NCBI RefSeq assembly: GCF_014697375.1
Contig: NZ_JACJRS010000006.1
Coordinates: 1-64,000, forward strand
Reading direction: 5' to 3'
Origin: Phormidium sp. FACHB-1136
GTDB lineage: Bacteria; Cyanobacteriota; Cyanobacteriia; Phormidesmidales; Phormidesmidaceae
DNA: 64,000 nucleotides
Both the position numbers and the translations under genes were made by a program. This document shows positions 21,412 to 62,107 of the stretch, one piece after another. The notes beneath the pieces were generated by a model, which ran no database searches, had not been told where the DNA came from, and worked only from the letters and a program-made list of their open reading frames with translations. Position 1 is the stretch's first letter, and each line of letters opens with the position of its first letter.

Positions 21412-21990
21412 ATGGCCGATCCCGTCACCATTCAAGATATTTACGAGTTATTCAAAGTCTCCCAGGCCGAAGCTGATCGGCGGGCCGCTGAGGCCGATCA
21501 GCGGGCCGCTGAGGCGGATCGCAGCATGGAAGAACTGCGGCGCATTGTGGCCAACACCAGCCGGGAAGTGTCTCGGTTGGGGGATCGCTGGGGGCTGTTT
21601 GTGGAAAACCTGGTGGCCCCAGCGGTGCAGCGGTTATTCCAAGAGCGGGGCATTGATATTCAGCAAACCTATCGTCGGGCCAAGTCCACCCGCCCAGAAG
21701 CGCCCATGGAAATTGATATTTTGGCGGTGAATGGTGATGTGGCGGTGGCCATTGAAGTCAAGTCGCGCCTCACCCAGGAAGACGTAGATACCTTTTGCAC
21801 CAAGCTGGAACGGTTCAAACTCGCCTTTCCAGAACGGGCGAACTATCGCATTTTGGGGGCCGTCGCTGCCATCGAGTTTGTGCAAGAGGTGGATCGCTAT
21901 GCCTACCGGAAAGGTCTCTTTGTGATGCGTCAGTGCGGTGATTCCATGGAACTCGCCAACAACGCCACCTTCCAGCCAAAGAGCTGGTGA
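21412..21990 (+). CDS. Coiled-coil plus PD-(D/E)XK nuclease-like protein (DUF3782-like), copy 1
   Basis: 192 aa. Residues 1-20 (MADPVTIQDIYELFKVSQAE) are followed by a short coiled coil of 7-residue EADRRAA-type units (to ~50), a conserved NTSREVSRLGDRWGLFVENLV block, and a C-terminal domain with EIDILAVNGDVAVAIEVKSRL. The Asp and the ExK spaced by beta strands match a PD-(D/E)XK nuclease core. Known relatives (DUF3782/DUF3782-like) are abundant in cyanobacteria and of unknown role. Two paralogues, at 58574 and 61736, are in the accessory island; this copy has the shortest intact coiled coil. Confidence 0.8.
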   Translation: MADPVTIQDIYELFKVSQAEADRRAAEADQRAAEADRSMEELRRIVANTSREVSRLGDRWGLFVENLVAPAVQRLFQERGIDIQQTYRRAKSTRPEAPMEIDILAVNGDVAVAIEVKSRLTQEDVDTFCTKLERFKLAFPERANYRILGAVAAIEFVQEVDRYAYRKGLFVMRQCGDSMELANNATFQPKSW

Positions 21991-46894: not shown

Positions 46895-47339
46895 ATCCGG
46901 CCCGTTTACCCCCAGCCTCAGCGGGCGGGGCAACCCTGGTTGACTGGCACAAGGATCCTGCGTCGGGCGAGGAAACCTCTCCCCTACAGCGTGAGGCATG
47001 GGATATTTTCTATAACTTTTGCTAAAACAATTTGCTTTTATAAAAGATTAAGACTTGAAACGAAGACCTTAAATAACCATGTCATTGTAGCGACATTTAC
47101 CAAAGCAAATTCTACGATAGGGAAGTAAAGCAAAATTTATGGCTTTACCTCCCAGCGAAGGCGCTTAAGAGCTATTGGAAACAGCTTTTGGGCTGGTTTT
47201 TGGTGTCGTTATTTCGTGTTTTTGCCCAGGCTGTCTCAACATCTTTTCAGCCTTTAGCCGCTACGTTTTGACCGTGTTTTCGTGCATTTGTGGTGTCTAG
47301 GCATTGCAGATCAAATCCTATTGCGTTTGGAGACTTATT
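46895..47339 (+). other. Intergenic region before ppsA
   Basis: About 445 bp; the first part has a member of the short dispersed repeat (gggcgaggaaacctctcccctac, 46964-46986). The remainder is AT-richer and should carry the ppsA promoter and a long leader. No supported operator or RNA. Confidence 0.5.
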
Positions 47340-49865
47340 ATGGTGCTATCTCATCGTCCAGAAGGCAACCTCTCCAGTCAACACTCTAAGGAAAACTCCT
47401 TTATCCTCTGGTTTGAGGAAGTCGGCATCGATGATATTCCTCTGGTGGGCGGCAAGAATGCCTCTTTGGGGGAAATGATTCAGCAGTTGGGTTCCAAGGG
47501 CGTGAACGTGCCCACGGGCTTTGCCACCACCGCCTTTGCCTACCGCTACTTTATTGAAAAGGCCGGACTGGAAGCGCAACTGCGGGAACTGTTTGCCGAA
47601 CTGGATCTCGATGATGTGCTGGATCTGCGGGCACGGGGTAAGCAGGCTCGTTCCATGGTGATGAACACTCCCTTCCCCCCCGAACTGGAAGCGGCGATTA
47701 GTAGCGCCTACCTGCGGCTGTGCGACCGCTACGGCCAAGATCAGGAATTCTGTGAGCGCTTCGAGGGCGAGTATGCCGATGAGTGCCGCAAGTTCTCCAG
47801 CGATCTGGATGTGGCGGTGCGTTCCTCGGCAACGGCGGAAGACCTGCCCGATGCCAGCTTTGCCGGACAGCAGGAAACCTACCTGAACGTCCACGGCGTA
47901 AAGGGCGTGGTGGAAGCCTGCCACAAGTGCTTTGCGTCGCTGTTCACCGACCGGGCCATCTCCTACCGCCACCAGTACGCCGAGCGGATTGACGGCTTCG
48001 ACGAATTTTCCGTCGCCCTGTCCGTGGGTGTGCAAAAGATGGTGCGGTCTGACCTGGCCACCTCCGGCGTGATGTTCTCCATTGATACGGAAACCGGGTT
48101 TAAGAACGCTGCCCTGATCACCGCCGCCTACGGCTTGGGCGAAAACGTGGTGCAGGGGGCCGTCAACCCCGATGAATACTTTGTCTTCAAGCCCACCCTC
48201 AAGGATGGCAAGCGCCCCATCCTTAACAAGCGTCTGGGCAGCAAAGAGATCAAAATGATCTACGACATCGGCGGCGGCAAGGAAACCAAGAACGTACCCG
48301 TGGCCGAACCTGACCGCAAGAAGTTCTGCATCAGCGACGATGAAGCCCTCATCCTCGCCAAGTGGGCCTGCATCATTGAAGACCACTACAGCGCACACCG
48401 GGGCAAAGAAACCCCGATGGACATTGAGTGGGCCAAGGACGGCATGACCGGGGAACTGTACATTGTGCAGGCGCGGCCTGAAACGGTGCAGTCCCAGAAA
48501 TCTGGCAGCGTGATCAAAAACTACAAGCTGCAAGGCACCAGCGAGGTGATCACCACCGGACGGGCGGTCGGCGAAATGATCGGCGCAGGCAAGGCCCGCG
48601 TAATCATGGATGTCCACCGCATCGCTGAGTTCCAAGAAGGGGAAGTGCTCGTCACCAACCGCACCGACCCCGACTGGGAACCGATCATGAAAAAATCCAG
48701 CGCCATCATCACCAACCAGGGTGGGCGCACCTGCCACGCCGCCATCATTGCGCGGGAAATGGGCATTCCGGCCATCGTCGGCTGCGGCGATGCCACAGAG
48801 GTGATCAAGCCGGGACAGGAAGTGACGGTCTCCTGTGCCGAGGGTGAAGAAGGACGGGTTTATGCCGGGATGGTGCCCTTCGAGGTGATCGAAACGCCCC
48901 TGGATAACCTGCCCCGCACCCGCACCAAGATCCTGATGAACGTGGGCAACCCTGAAGAAGCCTTTGGCCTGTCCGCCATTCCCTGCGATGGCGTCGGTCT
49001 GGCCCGGTTGGAATTCATCATCGCCAACCAGATTAAGGCTCACCCCCTGGCCCTAATGAACTTCGATAAGCTCGAAGACAAGGCCGCCAAGTGGGAAATC
49101 TCCCAACTCACCGCCAACTACGACAACAAGCCAGAGTTCTTCGTAGACAAACTGGCCACGGGCGTAGGGATGATCGCCGCCGCCTTCTATCCCAACCCCG
49201 TTGTCGTCCGCATGTCGGACTTCAAGAGCAACGAGTACGCCAACCTAATCGGCGGTCGCGAGTTTGAACCCCACGAAGAAAACCCGATGATCGGCTGGCG
49301 CGGCGCATCCCGCTACTACGATCCCAAGTACACCGAAGCCTACGGCCTAGAGTGTAAGGCGATCAAGCGCGTCCGCGATGACATGGGCCTCACCAATGTC
49401 ATCCCCATGATTCCCTTCTGCCGCACCCCCGAAGAGGGCAAGCGCGTGCTAGAAACCATGGAAAAATACGGCCTCAAGCGCGGCGAAAATGGCCTGGAAG
49501 TCTACGTCATGTGCGAGATTCCCAGCAATGTCATCCTGGCCGACCAGTTTGCGGAAGTCTTCGATGGCTTCTCCATCGGCTCCAACGACCTCACCCAGCT
49601 CACCCTGGGTCTGGATCGCGACTCTGCCCTGGTGGCCCACATCTTTGACGAACGCAACGCCGGGGTGAAGGAACTGGTGCGCCAAGTCATCACCCGCGCC
49701 AAAGCCACCGGACGCAAGATCGGCATCTGCGGACAGGCCCCCAGCGATTACCCAGAATTCGCCGCCTTCTTGGTGGAACTGGGCATCGATTCCATCAGCC
49801 TCAACCCCGACACGGTGTTGAAAACCATGCTGGAAATCGCCAAAACCGAAGACCGGGTGGGCTAG
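47340..49865 (+). CDS. ppsA: Phosphoenolpyruvate synthase
   Basis: 841 aa from ATG 47340 (the TTG at 47304 is weaker). N-terminal ATP-grasp domain (GGKNASLGEMI; RSSATAEDLPDASFAGQQET), the swivelling His domain (GGRTCHAAIIAREMGIPA, phospho-His) and the C-terminal PEP-binding barrel (RMSDFKSNEYANL; GSNDLTQLTLGLDRD; GICGQAPSDYPEF). It converts pyruvate + ATP to PEP + AMP + phosphate for gluconeogenesis. The long antisense frame over it is a codon shadow. It is the last core gene before the accessory island. Confidence 0.95.
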   Translation: MVLSHRPEGNLSSQHSKENSFILWFEEVGIDDIPLVGGKNASLGEMIQQLGSKGVNVPTGFATTAFAYRYFIEKAGLEAQLRELFAELDLDDVLDLRARGKQARSMVMNTPFPPELEAAISSAYLRLCDRYGQDQEFCERFEGEYADECRKFSSDLDVAVRSSATAEDLPDASFAGQQETYLNVHGVKGVVEACHKCFASLFTDRAISYRHQYAERIDGFDEFSVALSVGVQKMVRSDLATSGVMFSIDTETGFKNAALITAAYGLGENVVQGAVNPDEYFVFKPTLKDGKRPILNKRLGSKEIKMIYDIGGGKETKNVPVAEPDRKKFCISDDEALILAKWACIIEDHYSAHRGKETPMDIEWAKDGMTGELYIVQARPETVQSQKSGSVIKNYKLQGTSEVITTGRAVGEMIGAGKARVIMDVHRIAEFQEGEVLVTNRTDPDWEPIMKKSSAIITNQGGRTCHAAIIAREMGIPAIVGCGDATEVIKPGQEVTVSCAEGEEGRVYAGMVPFEVIETPLDNLPRTRTKILMNVGNPEEAFGLSAIPCDGVGLARLEFIIANQIKAHPLALMNFDKLEDKAAKWEISQLTANYDNKPEFFVDKLATGVGMIAAAFYPNPVVVRMSDFKSNEYANLIGGREFEPHEENPMIGWRGASRYYDPKYTEAYGLECKAIKRVRDDMGLTNVIPMIPFCRTPEEGKRVLETMEKYGLKRGENGLEVYVMCEIPSNVILADQFAEVFDGFSIGSNDLTQLTLGLDRDSALVAHIFDERNAGVKELVRQVITRAKATGRKIGICGQAPSDYPEFAAFLVELGIDSISLNPDTVLKTMLEIAKTEDRVG

Positions 49866-52121: not shown

Positions 52122-52346
52122 TTAGTCATAGAAACTTTTGCGGTGCTGACATTGGCCCAGAATAACTACTTGGTTTTCATCATCAACTTTATAGCGTAGA
52201 CGATAATCACCCATACGAATACAATACTCAGCCCCCATACCCTTAAGCTTCAGCGCACCATCCGGGCGTGGCTCCTCCGCCAGCAGCCGTATTTTCTTGA
52301 GAACGCACTGGTAGACTTGCTCCGGCGATACACAACACTGCCTCAT
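52122..52346 (-). CDS. RelE/ParE-type toxin, N-terminally replaced
   Basis: 74 aa. The C-terminal part is clearly RelE-like: VLKKIRLLAEEPRP, ALKLKGMGAEYCIRMGDYRLRYKV, quoted in part, and the conserved end ILGQCQHRKSFYD with basic catalytic residues. The first ~18 residues are encoded by the edge of leader copy A (52341-52388), so the usual N-terminal helix has been lost to recombination. Without it the toxin may be inactive. No antitoxin lies beside it. Two decayed copies of its 3' end exist at 55471 and 57377. Confidence 0.7.
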   Translation of the reverse strand: MRQCCVSPEQVYQCVLKKIRLLAEEPRPDGALKLKGMGAEYCIRMGDYRLRYKVDDENQVVILGQCQHRKSFYD

Positions 52347-52388
52347 CCTAGTCAGGCATAATGGGAGGTAGGTACATTATTGTCATCC
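52341..52388 (+). repeat. Leader repeat, copy A (before DUF2283 gene)
   Basis: The segment ctcatcctagtcaggcataatgggaggtaggtaca (given for the pattern: agtcaggcataat then gggaggtaggtaca) and gtcatcc recurs at 58515-58562 and, diverged, at 61674-61733. It lies 23 bp before the DUF2283 gene and includes the start of the truncated toxin on the other strand. Its constant place suggests a shared promoter or recombination site. Confidence 0.8.
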
Positions 52389-52410
52389 CCCTAAAGTCTG
52401 GTAAGAGACT

Positions 52411-52608
52411 ATGGACACCCTAAAGATCTACTACGACGAACTTGGCAAAACTCTAACCGTCTGGTTCGGTGATCCATCCGAGGAGTTTATTGCCGAAGAA
52501 ACTGGGGAGGAGGTGCTATTGATGAAGAATCATGCTGGTACCGTGATTGGTTTTGAGCGCTTAAACTATGAACCGACCAAAGACAAAATTTTCAAAATCG
52601 AAGAATGA
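52411..52608 (+). CDS. DUF2283 protein, copy 1
   Basis: 65 aa, a small beta-rich protein of the DUF2283 type: LKIYYDELGKTLTVWFGDP, then EEFIAEETGEEVLLMKN and a C-terminal IGFERLNY. Members are frequent in cyanobacteria beside toxin-antitoxin genes, and their role is unknown. The TGA (52606-52608) overlaps the ATG of the next gene, so the pair is translationally coupled. A paralogue with about 80% identity is at 59279. Confidence 0.8.
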   Translation: MDTLKIYYDELGKTLTVWFGDPSEEFIAEETGEEVLLMKNHAGTVIGFERLNYEPTKDKIFKIEE

Positions 52609-52856
52609 TGCAGCTAAAACCGCGTGACATCGCCATCCAAAACAGCACACTCAAAGTTCTAATCCAAGAACTTGGTCAAGAATGTGAACGGGTGATGGAG
52701 CTAATTTCACAGCTTCAGTTATCTAACTTGCAAGAAGACCAAAAAATCGAAATTCTTTCTGGCCTAATTGTCTCATCCATCCATCTAAGTAGCCATTGCG
52801 ACGAAGCTTTCCAAGGTTTACTGGCAGATGAAATAGACCATTTATCAGAGATTTAA
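52605..52856 (+). CDS. 83-aa helical partner of DUF2283, copy 1
   Basis: Starts inside the stop of the DUF2283 gene (ATGATG). The 83-aa product is helical and acidic: PRDIAIQNSTLKVLIQELGQ, MELISQLQLSNLQEDQKIEI and a C-terminal DEIDHLSEI. No known family was recognised. The same coupled pair recurs at 59279-59724 with few changes, so the two genes move or duplicate together. An antitoxin-like or adaptor role is guessed from context only. Confidence 0.7.
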   Translation: MMQLKPRDIAIQNSTLKVLIQELGQECERVMELISQLQLSNLQEDQKIEILSGLIVSSIHLSSHCDEAFQGLLADEIDHLSEI

Positions 52857-53221: not shown

Positions 53222-53265
53222 AGCCAAGGCTACAATTGTCCATAGGTTATTTCCGCTGGTGCTGT

Positions 53266-53520
53266 ATGGCCATCCTCATCTCTCTACCCCCCGACCTTGA
53301 AGCCAAACTTCAGGCCAAGGCCGAACGCCAAGGACAAGACATCGCCATTGTCGCCGCCGACCTCCTCAGCGACATCCTAGAATGGGACGACGACGACAAT
53401 GAAGCCGCCATCCAAGGCATCCAGAAAGGACTAGATGACTTTGAAGCAGGGCAGTTTCGTAACTTCAGCGACTTTGCCGCCGAACAGCGCCGTAAATATG
53501 ACTTGCCTCCTAACCCATGA
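53266..53520 (+). CDS. Antitoxin of the 53517 ParE-type toxin
   Basis: 84 aa from ATG 53266, where the homology to the 60376 copy begins. The N-terminal MAILISLPPDLEAKL and KAERQGQDIAIVAADLL have the strand-helix-helix look of RHH-type antitoxins; the C-terminal part (GLDDFEAGQFRNFSDFA) is the toxin-binding tail. The TGA at 53518-53520 overlaps the toxin ATG, typical of coupled modules. A second copy with another C-terminus is at 60376. Confidence 0.78.
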   Translation: MAILISLPPDLEAKLQAKAERQGQDIAIVAADLLSDILEWDDDDNEAAIQGIQKGLDDFEAGQFRNFSDFAAEQRRKYDLPPNP

Positions 53521-54161: not shown

Positions 54162-54431
54162 ATGGGTAACATAGGAACAGTTCCCCTCACCAGAGCTATG
54201 GCACAGGCCACCGACGACAACCCCAATATCAACCCCATCCAGGCGGCGCAAATTCTGGAGGAGATCCGAGCACTACGCCAGGAGGTGGAAGCGGCCAACC
54301 AAAGCACCAATGCCTTTAACCAAAAGTTTGGCACCTACCAAAAGGCAACCCAGTGGGTGGTTCAGCTTGCTTTTAGCCTCATTGCGGTGGCTGCGGTGAC
54401 GGTAATTGTTTCGACGGTGGTGGGAAAGTAG
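54162..54431 (+). CDS. Small membrane protein with coiled coil
   Basis: 89 aa from ATG 54162 (a TTG at 54129 is in frame). An acidic Asn-rich start, a coiled coil (QILEEIRALRQEVEAANQ), the linker TNAFNQKFGTYQKATQW and one membrane helix to the end (VVQLAFSLIAVAAVTVIV). The linker and helix resemble the C-terminal half of the fused protein at 60376. No family is known. Confidence 0.65.
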   Translation: MGNIGTVPLTRAMAQATDDNPNINPIQAAQILEEIRALRQEVEAANQSTNAFNQKFGTYQKATQWVVQLAFSLIAVAAVTVIVSTVVGK

Positions 54432-58364: not shown

Positions 58365-58514
58365 AAAACCTAGCAGAACAATGCACCTATCTTAACTTCA
58401 TTGTCTGCGGATTGCCTCAGTTCAACCCAAGCGTCTAAGCCAAGGCTACAGATGTCTATGCCTAACAGCTTCCAACATAGCTACCGTGGATAACACCTTA
58501 TCCCATGCCCCTGT

Positions 58515-58562
58515 CTCATCCTAGTCAGGCATAATGGGAGGTAGGTACAGCATTGTCATCCT
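58515..58562 (+). repeat. Leader repeat, copy B (before nuclease-like gene)
   Basis: Matches copy A almost exactly from ctcatcctagtcaggcataat through gggaggtaggtaca. It lies 12-60 bp before the ATG at 58574. Confidence 0.85.
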
Positions 58563-58573
58563 CCCAAGCATCC

Positions 58574-59272
58574 ATGGCAGACCCCGTTACCCTTCAGGAT
58601 ATCTACGACCTCTTCAAAGCCTCCCAGGCCGACCTCCAAGCCTCGCGAGAAGAATTTGATCGTCGCATGGCAGAATCTAAAGCCGAAGCAGAGCGGCAGA
58701 TGGCAGAGGCTAAAGCCTCGCGAGAAGAATTTGATCGCCGTATGGCAGAAGCTAAAGCCGAAGCAGACCAGCGCATGGCGGAAGCTAAAGTCGAAGCAGA
58801 TCGGCGTATGGCAAAATTGGAAGAAATTGCCGCCAACACCAGCCGGGAAGTAGGGCGTTTGGGTGATCGTTGGGGCACCTTCGTTGAGAACTTGGTTGAA
58901 CCAGCGGTATTGCGGTTATTTCAAGCACGAGGCATAGACATTCAAACCACCTATCGCCGAGCCAAATCCACCCGTCCCGCCGCCCGAATGGAAATTGATA
59001 TTCTGGCCATTGATGGCGATGTGGCCGTAGCGATTGAAGTCAAATCTCGACTCACCCAGCAAGATATCGATGACCTATGTGAAAAGCTTCAGAAATTTAA
59101 GCTTGCCTTCCCAGCATACGCATCCCATCGAATCTATGGAGCCGTTGCCGCCATTGAATTTGTGCAAGACGTAGACCGCTACGCCTACCGCAAAGGTCTA
59201 TTTGTCATTCGCCAGTGCGGCGACTCTGTAGAACTAGCCAATGATGAGAGCTTTCAGCCTAGAGCCTGGTAA
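58574..59272 (+). CDS. Coiled-coil plus PD-(D/E)XK nuclease-like protein (DUF3782-like), copy 2
   Basis: 232 aa from ATG 58574, as in its paralogues. MADPVTLQDIYDLFKAS is followed by a long coiled coil (about 20-85) of repeating REEFDRRMAEAKAEAD-type heptads, roughly 40 residues longer than copy 1, and then NTSREVGRLGDRWGTFVEN and the nuclease-like EIDILAIDGDVAVAIEVKSRL. It is followed 6 bp later by DUF2283 and its coupled partner; leader copy B precedes it, so the three form one cassette. Substrate is unknown; the coiled coil may set oligomerisation or a partner. Confidence 0.8.
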   Translation: MADPVTLQDIYDLFKASQADLQASREEFDRRMAESKAEAERQMAEAKASREEFDRRMAEAKAEADQRMAEAKVEADRRMAKLEEIAANTSREVGRLGDRWGTFVENLVEPAVLRLFQARGIDIQTTYRRAKSTRPAARMEIDILAIDGDVAVAIEVKSRLTQQDIDDLCEKLQKFKLAFPAYASHRIYGAVAAIEFVQDVDRYAYRKGLFVIRQCGDSVELANDESFQPRAW

Positions 59273-59278
59273 TCGATC

Positions 59279-59476
59279 ATGAAGACTTTGAAAATTTACC
59301 ACGACAAACTTGGTAAAACCCTCACTGTCTGGTTTAGCGATCCATCCCAAGAGTTTATCACCGAAGAAACTGGGGAGGAGATTTTGTTGATGAAGAATCA
59401 GGTTGGCACCGTGATTGGCTTTGAACACTTAAACTATGAACCGACCAAAGACAAAATTTTCAAAATCGAAAAATGA
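59279..59476 (+). CDS. DUF2283 protein, copy 2
   Basis: 65 aa, closely similar to the 52411 copy (LKIYHDKLGKTLTVWFSDP; EEFITEETGEEILLMKN). It begins 6 bp after the nuclease-like gene and overlaps the next ATG at its stop. The pair of copies shows it is part of a recurring unit rather than a solitary small gene. Confidence 0.8.
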   Translation: MKTLKIYHDKLGKTLTVWFSDPSQEFITEETGEEILLMKNQVGTVIGFEHLNYEPTKDKIFKIEK

Positions 59477-59724
59477 TGCAGCTAAAACCGCGTGACATCG
59501 CCATTCAAAACAGCACACTCAAAGTTCTAATCCAAGAACTTGGTCAAGAATGTAAACGAGTGATGGAGCTAATTTCACAGCTTCAGTTATCTAACTTGCA
59601 AGAAGACCAAAAAAACGAAATTCTTTCTAGCCTAATTGTTTCATCCATCTATCTTAACAGCCATTGCAACGAAGCTTTTCAAGATTTACTAGCAGATGAA
59701 CTAGATCGTTTATCCGATACTTAG
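59473..59724 (+). CDS. 83-aa helical partner of DUF2283, copy 2
   Basis: 83 aa, differing from copy 1 at about ten positions (for example KNEILSSLIV, LNSHCNEAFQDL, LADELDRLSDT). The same ATGATG overlap with the DUF2283 stop is kept. Conservation of both proteins with coupled translation suggests selection for the pair. Confidence 0.7.
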   Translation: MMQLKPRDIAIQNSTLKVLIQELGQECKRVMELISQLQLSNLQEDQKNEILSSLIVSSIYLNSHCNEAFQDLLADELDRLSDT

Positions 59725-60356: not shown

Positions 60357-60375
60357 TTTATACGAATGATGCCGT

Positions 60376-60684
60376 ATGGCCATCCTCATCTCCCTACCCC
60401 CCGACCTTGAAGCCAAACTTCAGGCCAAAGCCGAACGCCAAGGACAAGACATCGCCGTTGTCGCCGCCGACCTCCTCAGCGACATCCTAGAATGGGACGA
60501 AGACGATACCGAAGCCGCCATCCAATGCAAGGCATCGCAAGTAAATCAGCGTATAGCTACCGTTAATCAGGATTCTGATAATCATTACAATTCAACCCAG
60601 TGGATGATGCCGCTTTCCTTTATTCTCATTGCCATTGCCACAATCACCGTCATTGCTTCAAGAATTTTTGACACACTAAGCTAG
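60376..60684 (+). CDS. Antitoxin head fused to a membrane tail
   Basis: 102 aa. Residues 1-54 are almost identical, at DNA level too, to the 53266 antitoxin (MAILISLPPDLEAKL; VAADLLSDILEW). After that the sequence switches to SQVNQRIATVNQDSDNHYNS, then TQWMMPLSFILIAIATITVIAS, a membrane helix like that of the 54162 protein. No toxin follows; the MntA/HepT pair starts 60 bp later. A chimera formed by recombination between island genes is the simplest reading; whether it is made or functional is unknown. Confidence 0.7.
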   Translation: MAILISLPPDLEAKLQAKAERQGQDIAVVAADLLSDILEWDEDDTEAAIQCKASQVNQRIATVNQDSDNHYNSTQWMMPLSFILIAIATITVIASRIFDTLS

Positions 60685-61594: not shown

Positions 61595-61673
61595 TTATGG
61601 CTAATAGGATGCGTTAGCCCTAGCCTAGCGCATCATCGTTGTGTAAACAGCCTAACGACATAGGACACAACGC

Positions 61674-61733
61674 TATCCTATTCTAGTCAGGCATAATTGC
61701 AGGTAAGCGCATCATTGTCATCCTCCCAAGCAT
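61674..61733 (+). repeat. Leader repeat, copy C (before broken nuclease-like gene)
   Basis: Diverged copy of the leader: ctagtcaggcataattgcagg instead of the usual gggaggtag form, then gcatcattgtcatcctccca leading into the same ATG context as copy B. It is directly upstream of the broken copy. Confidence 0.75.
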
Positions 61734-61735
61734 CC

Positions 61736-62107
61736 ATGGCAGATCCCGTTACCCTTCAAGACATCTACGACCTCTTCAAAGCCTCCTAGACCGACCTCCA
61801 AGCCTCGCGGGAAGCATTTGATCGGCGTATGGCAGAATCTAAAGCCGAAGCAGATCGCCGCATGGCGGAGTTGGAAAATATTATCGCCAACACCAGTCGC
61901 AAAATAGGGCGCTTAGGGGATGATCGCTGGGGAACCTTTATCGAAGATTTAGTCGAACCATCGGTATCACGGTTATTTGAAGCGCGAGGTATAGACATTC
62001 AAACCACCTACCGTCGGGCCAAATCCACCCGTCCCGCCGCCCGAATGGAAATTGACATTCGGGCCATTGATGGCGATGGGGCCGTAGCGATTGAAGTCAA
62101 ACCTTGA
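61736..62107 (+). pseudogene. Broken DUF3782-like nuclease copy 3
   Basis: Begins MADPVTLQDIYDLFKAS as copies 1-2 but has a TAG at 61787-61789 where copy 2 has CAG. The frame continues through a short coiled coil, an extra Asp in GRLGDDRWG and the nuclease-like EIDIRAIDGDGAVAIEVKP, then stops, so the C-terminal third is missing. The early stop, the insertion and the truncation show it is decaying. Confidence 0.85.

Follow-up and report, generated by a model that had tools for sequence, protein, structure and literature searches.

A cluster of three related units between 52 and 62 kb of the window (the whole stretch of 64,000 nucleotides that was analyzed) is, in the reading that we favor at a probability of roughly 55%, a lineage-specific composite formed in a toxin-antitoxin-rich island behind ppsA. 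Two small genes, encoding a DUF2283-like protein and an 83-residue protein (P83), would be orphaned antitoxin-type halves placed on the promoter of a nuclease-like gene (nuc), and nuc itself would be a passenger. We take the gene at 47304-49865 to be ppsA (phosphoenolpyruvate synthase). The features are as follows.

21412 to 21990, plus strand: nuc paralogue within the window, free of stops, with no DUF2283 or P83 adjoining.
47304 to 49865, plus strand: ppsA-like gene, the left anchor for comparing the site across relatives.
52338 to 52404, plus strand: leader of unit 1, including the nuc 3' end remnant CCTAAAGTCTGGTAA, whose last nucleotide is 52404.
52411 to 52608, plus strand: DUF2283, copy 1.
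52605 to 52856, plus strand: P83, copy 1 (protein 87% identical to copy 2).
58511 to 58573, plus strand: leader of unit 2, the putative nuc promoter and 5' region, with a CATAAT box 44 nt before ATG 58574.
58574 to 59272, plus strand: nuc of unit 2 (232 aa), PD-(D/E)XK endonuclease-like and DUF3782-like, with an N-terminal coiled coil.
59279 to 59476, plus strand: DUF2283-like protein, copy 2 (65 aa).
59473 to 59724, plus strand: P83, copy 2 (83 aa, acidic), a predicted three-helix bundle.
61673 to 62107, plus strand: unit 3, a leader and a broken nuc.

The initial annotation had described a leader, a nuclease-like gene, a 6-bp gap, DUF2283, and an overlapping 83-residue gene at 58515-59724. 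These spacings were confirmed: nuc stops at 59272, DUF2283 starts 6 bp later at 59279, and the end of DUF2283 overlaps the start of P83 by 4 bp. The start of nuc is most likely ATG 58574, not TTG 58553. It was also correct that the leader recurs before a DUF2283 plus 83-residue pair at 52341 and before a broken nuclease-like gene at 61674. At the former, a nuc 3' remnant lies between leader and pair. The broken gene has a TAG early, in the N-terminal part of the frame, and a second stop directly behind its EVK motif. The leader copies start at 52338, 58511, and 61673 (repeat family D6), the second and third being 91% and 77% identical to the first. The DUF2283-P83 repeat (52390-52689 and 59258-59557) is 87% identical over 300 nt, and nuc is repeated in two stretches (58511 and 61673, 88%; 58861 and 61918, 87%). 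The leader, DUF2283-P83, and nuc repeats are all far above chance expectation.

The surrounding 52 to 62 kb contain toxin-antitoxin-type genes (ParE, DUF2442, PIN, Unstab_antitox, PemK/MazF, and MNT/HepT) and a DUF2281 gene. Behind each DUF2283-P83 pair is a third duplicated stretch (53257-53419 and 60367-60529, 94% identical), and the genes between the pair and this repeat differ, being DUF2442 in one case and a MazE/MazF-like pair in the other. Given this third repeat, the segment originally duplicated may have been longer and rearranged later.

The 300-nt repeat shared by units 1 and 2 starts at 52390 and 59258, the second of which is inside the 3' end of the unit 2 nuc. The unit 1 sequence CCTAAAGTCTGGTAA matches the unit 2 nuc end CCTAGAGCCTGGTAA at 13 of 15 positions. 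Because a nuc 3' remnant thus lies between leader and DUF2283, nuc was once present in unit 1 and lost later, and unit 1 is an internal deletion of nuc rather than an excision. The cluster had been proposed to be a duplicating or excisable cassette. Duplication is supported, but excision is not, because the common front end is the putative nuc promoter, the deletion is internal, and the copies have unlike ends. The units share only their left part, their right ends differ between copies, and no inverted repeats of at least 25 nt (12-nt seed) were found at 50-64 kb of the window. A mobile or excisable cassette is not supported, since no constant ends or terminal repeats are common to all copies.

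The leader appears to be the promoter region that belongs to nuc itself. Of the 27 nuc homologues compared from other genomes (the best match in each of 30 genomes, minus our own and two in which no N-terminus was found), 17 carry a CATAAT box 30 to 50 nt before the ATG. Mononucleotide shuffles of the same 27 loci gave a mean of 0.11 and a maximum of 2. Among the homologues the box often appears as GCATAATGG, and its spacing to the nuc start hardly varies. The box is absent in 10 of the 27 and at the paralogue at 21412. In unit 1, it stands 54 nt before DUF2283. A sigma-70 consensus scan reported no plus-strand promoter at the leader, so it is the conserved CATAAT box that marks the leader as a putative promoter. 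A search of the genome itself with 58515-58700 gave five matches. The leader part was covered by the three units only, so the leader is not just a common intergenic repeat, and the remaining two matches (58713 and 21410) cover coding sequence only. We also ruled out the leader as a mobile-element end, its identity as the putative nuc promoter region accounting for it.

To see the site in relatives, we used the ppsA-like protein. The nearest genus members were G014 (99% over 287 aa), G021 (99% over 256 aa), and G013 and G001 (91% each); this comparison used part of the gene, and the G021 match lies at a contig end. In G014, a 104-residue gene (P104) followed by DUF2283 comes directly after ppsA, and stretches related to ParE, Unstab_antitox, and DUF2442 of the window lie further downstream in changed order. 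The start region of DUF2283 copy 1 is identical to the G014 P104-DUF2283 junction over 43 printed nucleotides, and this identity begins within the last codons of P104. The site of P104 in this close relative is occupied in the window by a promoter-bearing nuc, a member of a multicopy PD-(D/E)XK-like family. The change of partner in comparison with relatives, like the nuc remnant and the duplication, is visible directly in the sequence. Behind ppsA, G001 has two leader-nuc units, and between them a 90-residue gene related to window positions 54163-54427; the fetched stretch contains neither DUF2283 nor P83. None of these families was found at the site in G013, G018, or five further genus members (stretches of 1.7 to 7.1 kb). 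At the right-hand gene (62369), 2.7 to 19 kb of upstream sequence in four relatives held no other similarity to the window.

P104 is the usual neighbor of DUF2283. It lies directly upstream in 23 of 29 DUF2283 loci from other genomes (30 loci were fetched out of 36 matches), with an overlap of about 13 nt in intact examples. Relatives of P104 also occur on six plasmid records from Synechocystis, Chondrocystis, and Leptospira, and in three of these (Leptospira) DUF2283 is annotated under the P104 match. Copy 1 of the window just passes the Pfam DUF2283 cut-off (23.2 bits against 23.0), and copy 2 is below it (16.8 bits). DUF2283 had no match in PADLOC, and a literature search by that name found no paper. 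We take DUF2283 and HicB-type proteins to be antitoxins, as general background or from family names.

P83 has a different usual neighbor. It matched in 80 genomes of a 388-genome draw of the class, which is a sample with many fragmented assemblies. We scanned 84 P83 places with profiles, including the window's two and dropping places above an E value of 1e-15. At 62, a basic 61-residue gene (P61) lies within 200 nt upstream. DUF2283 is upstream at three, two being the window's own copies and the third in G225, and a HicB-like gene is upstream at two, adjoining P83 in one and 106 nt away in the other. The remaining 17 have no recognized partner, and some of these look like P61 deletions. In L152, L156, and L158, the P61 start (MGKKNHEKSI or nearly so) is in frame with P83, apparently by deletion of the rest of P61. 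Separately, a helix-turn-helix gene precedes P61-P83 or P83 in L096, L101, L102, L129, and others, and in some genus members that lack P61 at this place the gene continues directly into P83. A second scan covered 41 P83 loci from named genomes (a single pattern, which may omit our own genome and very near ones). It found no DUF2283 or nuc within up to 4 kb on each side. Four of these loci are from Desulfobacterota or a proteobacterium, with P61 recognized by profile in one of the four. A plasmid search with one P83 relative gave no match.

The two proteins are oppositely charged, with a pI of 10.6 to 11.4 for P61 (two sequences) and 4.1 to 4.5 for P83 (three sequences). Among 48 strong P61 matches in the 388-genome draw (E < 1e-15, free of internal stops), 47 have P83 within 120 nt downstream. 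The exception lacks its N-terminus, and a few of the 47 are likewise partial. In the reverse comparison, strong P61 was present at 47 of 82 P83 places, and several others had a broken or partial P61. P61-P83 therefore shows what looks like the occurrence asymmetry of a toxin-antitoxin pair, weakened because, where P83 lacks a strong P61 beside it, a broken or partial one is often kept; P61 is also the shorter protein and harder to detect. No P61 match was found in the genome under study. In the window, no basic P61 lies directly upstream of P83; DUF2283 occupies that position.

Weaker P61 matches that do not adjoin P83 proper define a second subfamily, present in many cyanobacterial genomes. 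A P61-like gene was found in 17 of 18 fetched stretches (L236-L250, L252, and L253 of L236-L253); the eighteenth is the P61 exception without an N-terminus. In these 17, a second gene, acidic and encoding about 80 residues, overlaps the end of a basic 64-residue gene. The overlap is 4 nt in 12 of the pairs; in the other 5 it is longer, the mechanical start being further upstream. Two pairs gave a pI of 9.7 for the P61-like protein and 4.3 to 4.4 for its partner. All P61 and P83 sequences scanned stayed below the Pfam and NCBIfam cut-offs, and PADLOC and PHROGs gave no match for those submitted to them (variants P61b and P83b were scanned with Pfam only, and the second subfamily with Pfam and NCBIfam only). 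P61-P83 thus appears, on these comparisons, to be a widespread pair without a curated family in Pfam, NCBIfam, PADLOC, or PHROGs. The P83 model is a confident three-helix bundle (pLDDT 89.4) of generic fold. Structure searches with it were uninformative: the best Foldseek E value was 0.3, and VIA-align gave Z scores of up to 8.4, which the tool warns are common among helical bundles. Sequence matches of P83 to solved structures (protein A, E of 0.036; MazG-related, E of 0.51) were weak and set aside.

A tentative extension, to which we give less weight than to the main reading, is that P61-P83 is an unrecognized toxin-antitoxin-like module of cyanobacteria that has two subfamilies and Desulfobacterota relatives, and that P83 swaps partners to build antitoxin-antitoxin operons protecting against several toxins. 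Such a swap would involve loss of P61 and then recoupling, to DUF2283 (here and in G225) or to a HicB-like gene (in two genomes).

The main rival to the composite that we favor is that DUF2283 replaced P61, or P83 moved beside DUF2283, and that the two now form one functional complex. We consider this a lesser but real possibility. Their 4-nt stop/start overlap resembles that of many P61-P83 pairs, and both copies look selected. Between copy 1 and copy 2, dN/dS was 0.11 for DUF2283 (Fisher p = 6e-8) and 0.30 for P83 (p = 0.018), on at most 250 nt per gene and with p from rounded counts. This suggests that both copies of both genes are under selection. Synonymous divergence between copies was unequal, at 0.77 for DUF2283 and 0.19 for P83 (p = 0.002), so the copies are possibly recombinant. 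The G225 locus (L137, G225:C8, 1116-2371) reads P104, then three successive DUF2283 genes that differ from one another, then P83; it is an independent case of DUF2283 immediately before P83. The HicB-like antitoxin genes ahead of P83 point the same way. Against a working hybrid, DUF2283 precedes P83 at only 3 of 84 places, two of them the window's own, and neither protein, judged by charge and position, resembles the toxin-type half of the pair it usually forms.

The initial annotation had suggested that the 83-residue protein and DUF2283 keep a nuclease in check, as a toxin-antitoxin-like or defense module. We think a three-gene module with nuc as the restrained toxin improbable. Unit 2 does have operon-like tight spacing, and unit 3, where the one nuc of the cluster without the pair lies, is broken. 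The catalytic D...ExK motif is also kept, with E140, D142, E155, and K157 conserved in 28 to 29 of 30 aligned proteins. The nuc protein falls below the Pfam DUF3782 gathering cut-off (20.6 bits against 24.4). Its model has elements in the order H-E-E-E-H-E, where an alpha-beta-beta-beta-alpha-beta core is expected; because the model is of low confidence (pLDDT 54.5), a PD-(D/E)XK fold is suggested only. Solved structures gave coiled-coil matches only (best E, 0.0018), and PADLOC gave weak matches only (best 6.9e-5, to CARF_PDDEXK). The coiled-coil part (58638-58820) contains a 75-nt tandem duplication and 33-nt (11-residue) repeats, and protein length differs strongly among homologues.

It is the neighborhoods of nuc that argue against its being the toxin. 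The genome contains 21 nuc matches, in pieces, of which 13 besides unit 2 are full length without stops; none of these 13 is near a DUF2283 or P83 match, and searches for those two families (E up to 0.001) matched only the two window units. Neither DUF2283 nor P83 was within 1.5 kb at any of 29 nuc loci from other genomes, only our own locus having them (30 loci with our own, some ending at contig ends). No P83 locus scanned had a nuc match except our own, and the pair persists in unit 1 although nuc is gone. In a type II module, the toxin gene is generally accompanied by its antitoxin; nuc is not so accompanied by DUF2283-P83. In one other genome (L089), a truncated nuc start lies directly behind a P104-DUF2283 pair, so the nuc-DUF2283 neighborhood is not wholly unique to the window and has arisen at least once more. 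Viral origin was rejected, as no nuc or P83 relative was confirmed among viral contigs. The idea of restraint by the pair is thus little supported. Independent scattering of the three genes, which the initial annotation had named as a refutation, was found in the loci examined (29 of 29 for nuc, 23 of 29 for DUF2283, and 62 of 84 for P83). The toxin-antitoxin-like character holds for DUF2283 and P83, which sit in such pairs elsewhere, but not for a module with nuc.

A neutral reading, in which recombination has scattered the remnants of a decaying toxin-antitoxin island and these now have no function, would fit the broken unit 3, the deleted unit 1, the many partial copies nearby, and the 17 of 84 P83 places without a recognized partner, but is doubtful because all four reading frames of the two copies are intact and their dN/dS is well below 1.

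We return to the lineage-specific composite, inferring the order of its events before the duplication and all functions. The nuc gene would have taken the place of P104 upstream of DUF2283, and P83 would have docked behind DUF2283 through overlapping stop and start codons. The nuc-DUF2283-P83 composite was then duplicated. In unit 1, nuc was deleted with its putative promoter region retained in front of DUF2283-P83, and in unit 3 nuc decayed. DUF2283 and P83 are probably antitoxin-type proteins, a label based on neighborhood, size, charge, and occurrence patterns, and would be halves separated from the partners they began with, P104 and P61. Expressed now from the nuc promoter, the pair would most likely have been retained as solitary antitoxins that neutralize P104- or P61-type partners of incoming modules by binding. 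Alternatively, they might repress such modules. The nuc gene would be an unrelated upstream passenger rather than a toxin that the pair controls.

The cluster may thus exemplify re-wiring of toxin-antitoxin-like genes with likely starting arrangements still present in relatives. A nuclease-like gene would replace the usual partner, a promoter region would be captured on deletion, and a small gene would dock. The occurrence pattern of P61-P83 also singles out a widespread pair of small genes that has no Pfam or NCBIfam family.

Three known systems invite comparison. DUF3782/PD-(D/E)XK endonucleases (Pfam PF12644) have coiled-coil stalks, according to the passages of PMC4786415 that treat them. 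Like them, nuc has an N-terminal coiled coil before a PD-(D/E)XK-like core with the motif residues kept. Unlike them, it is just below the Pfam cut-off, and nuc together with DUF2283 and P83 was found in its own genome only. DUF2283 (Pfam PF10049) with its usual upstream neighbor P104 is represented in that copy 1 passes the cut-off and G014 has the pair at the same site, whereas the window lacks P104 and P83 follows DUF2283. The main text of a study of cyanobacterial type II toxin-antitoxin systems (PMC4963859) mentions DUF4258 once and does not contain DUF2283. In contrast to the systems in that text, P61 and P83 stay under every Pfam and NCBIfam cut-off, and PADLOC gives no match for them. 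What they share with the systems described there is small coupled genes of opposite charge, a patchy distribution, and a toxin-antitoxin-rich region.
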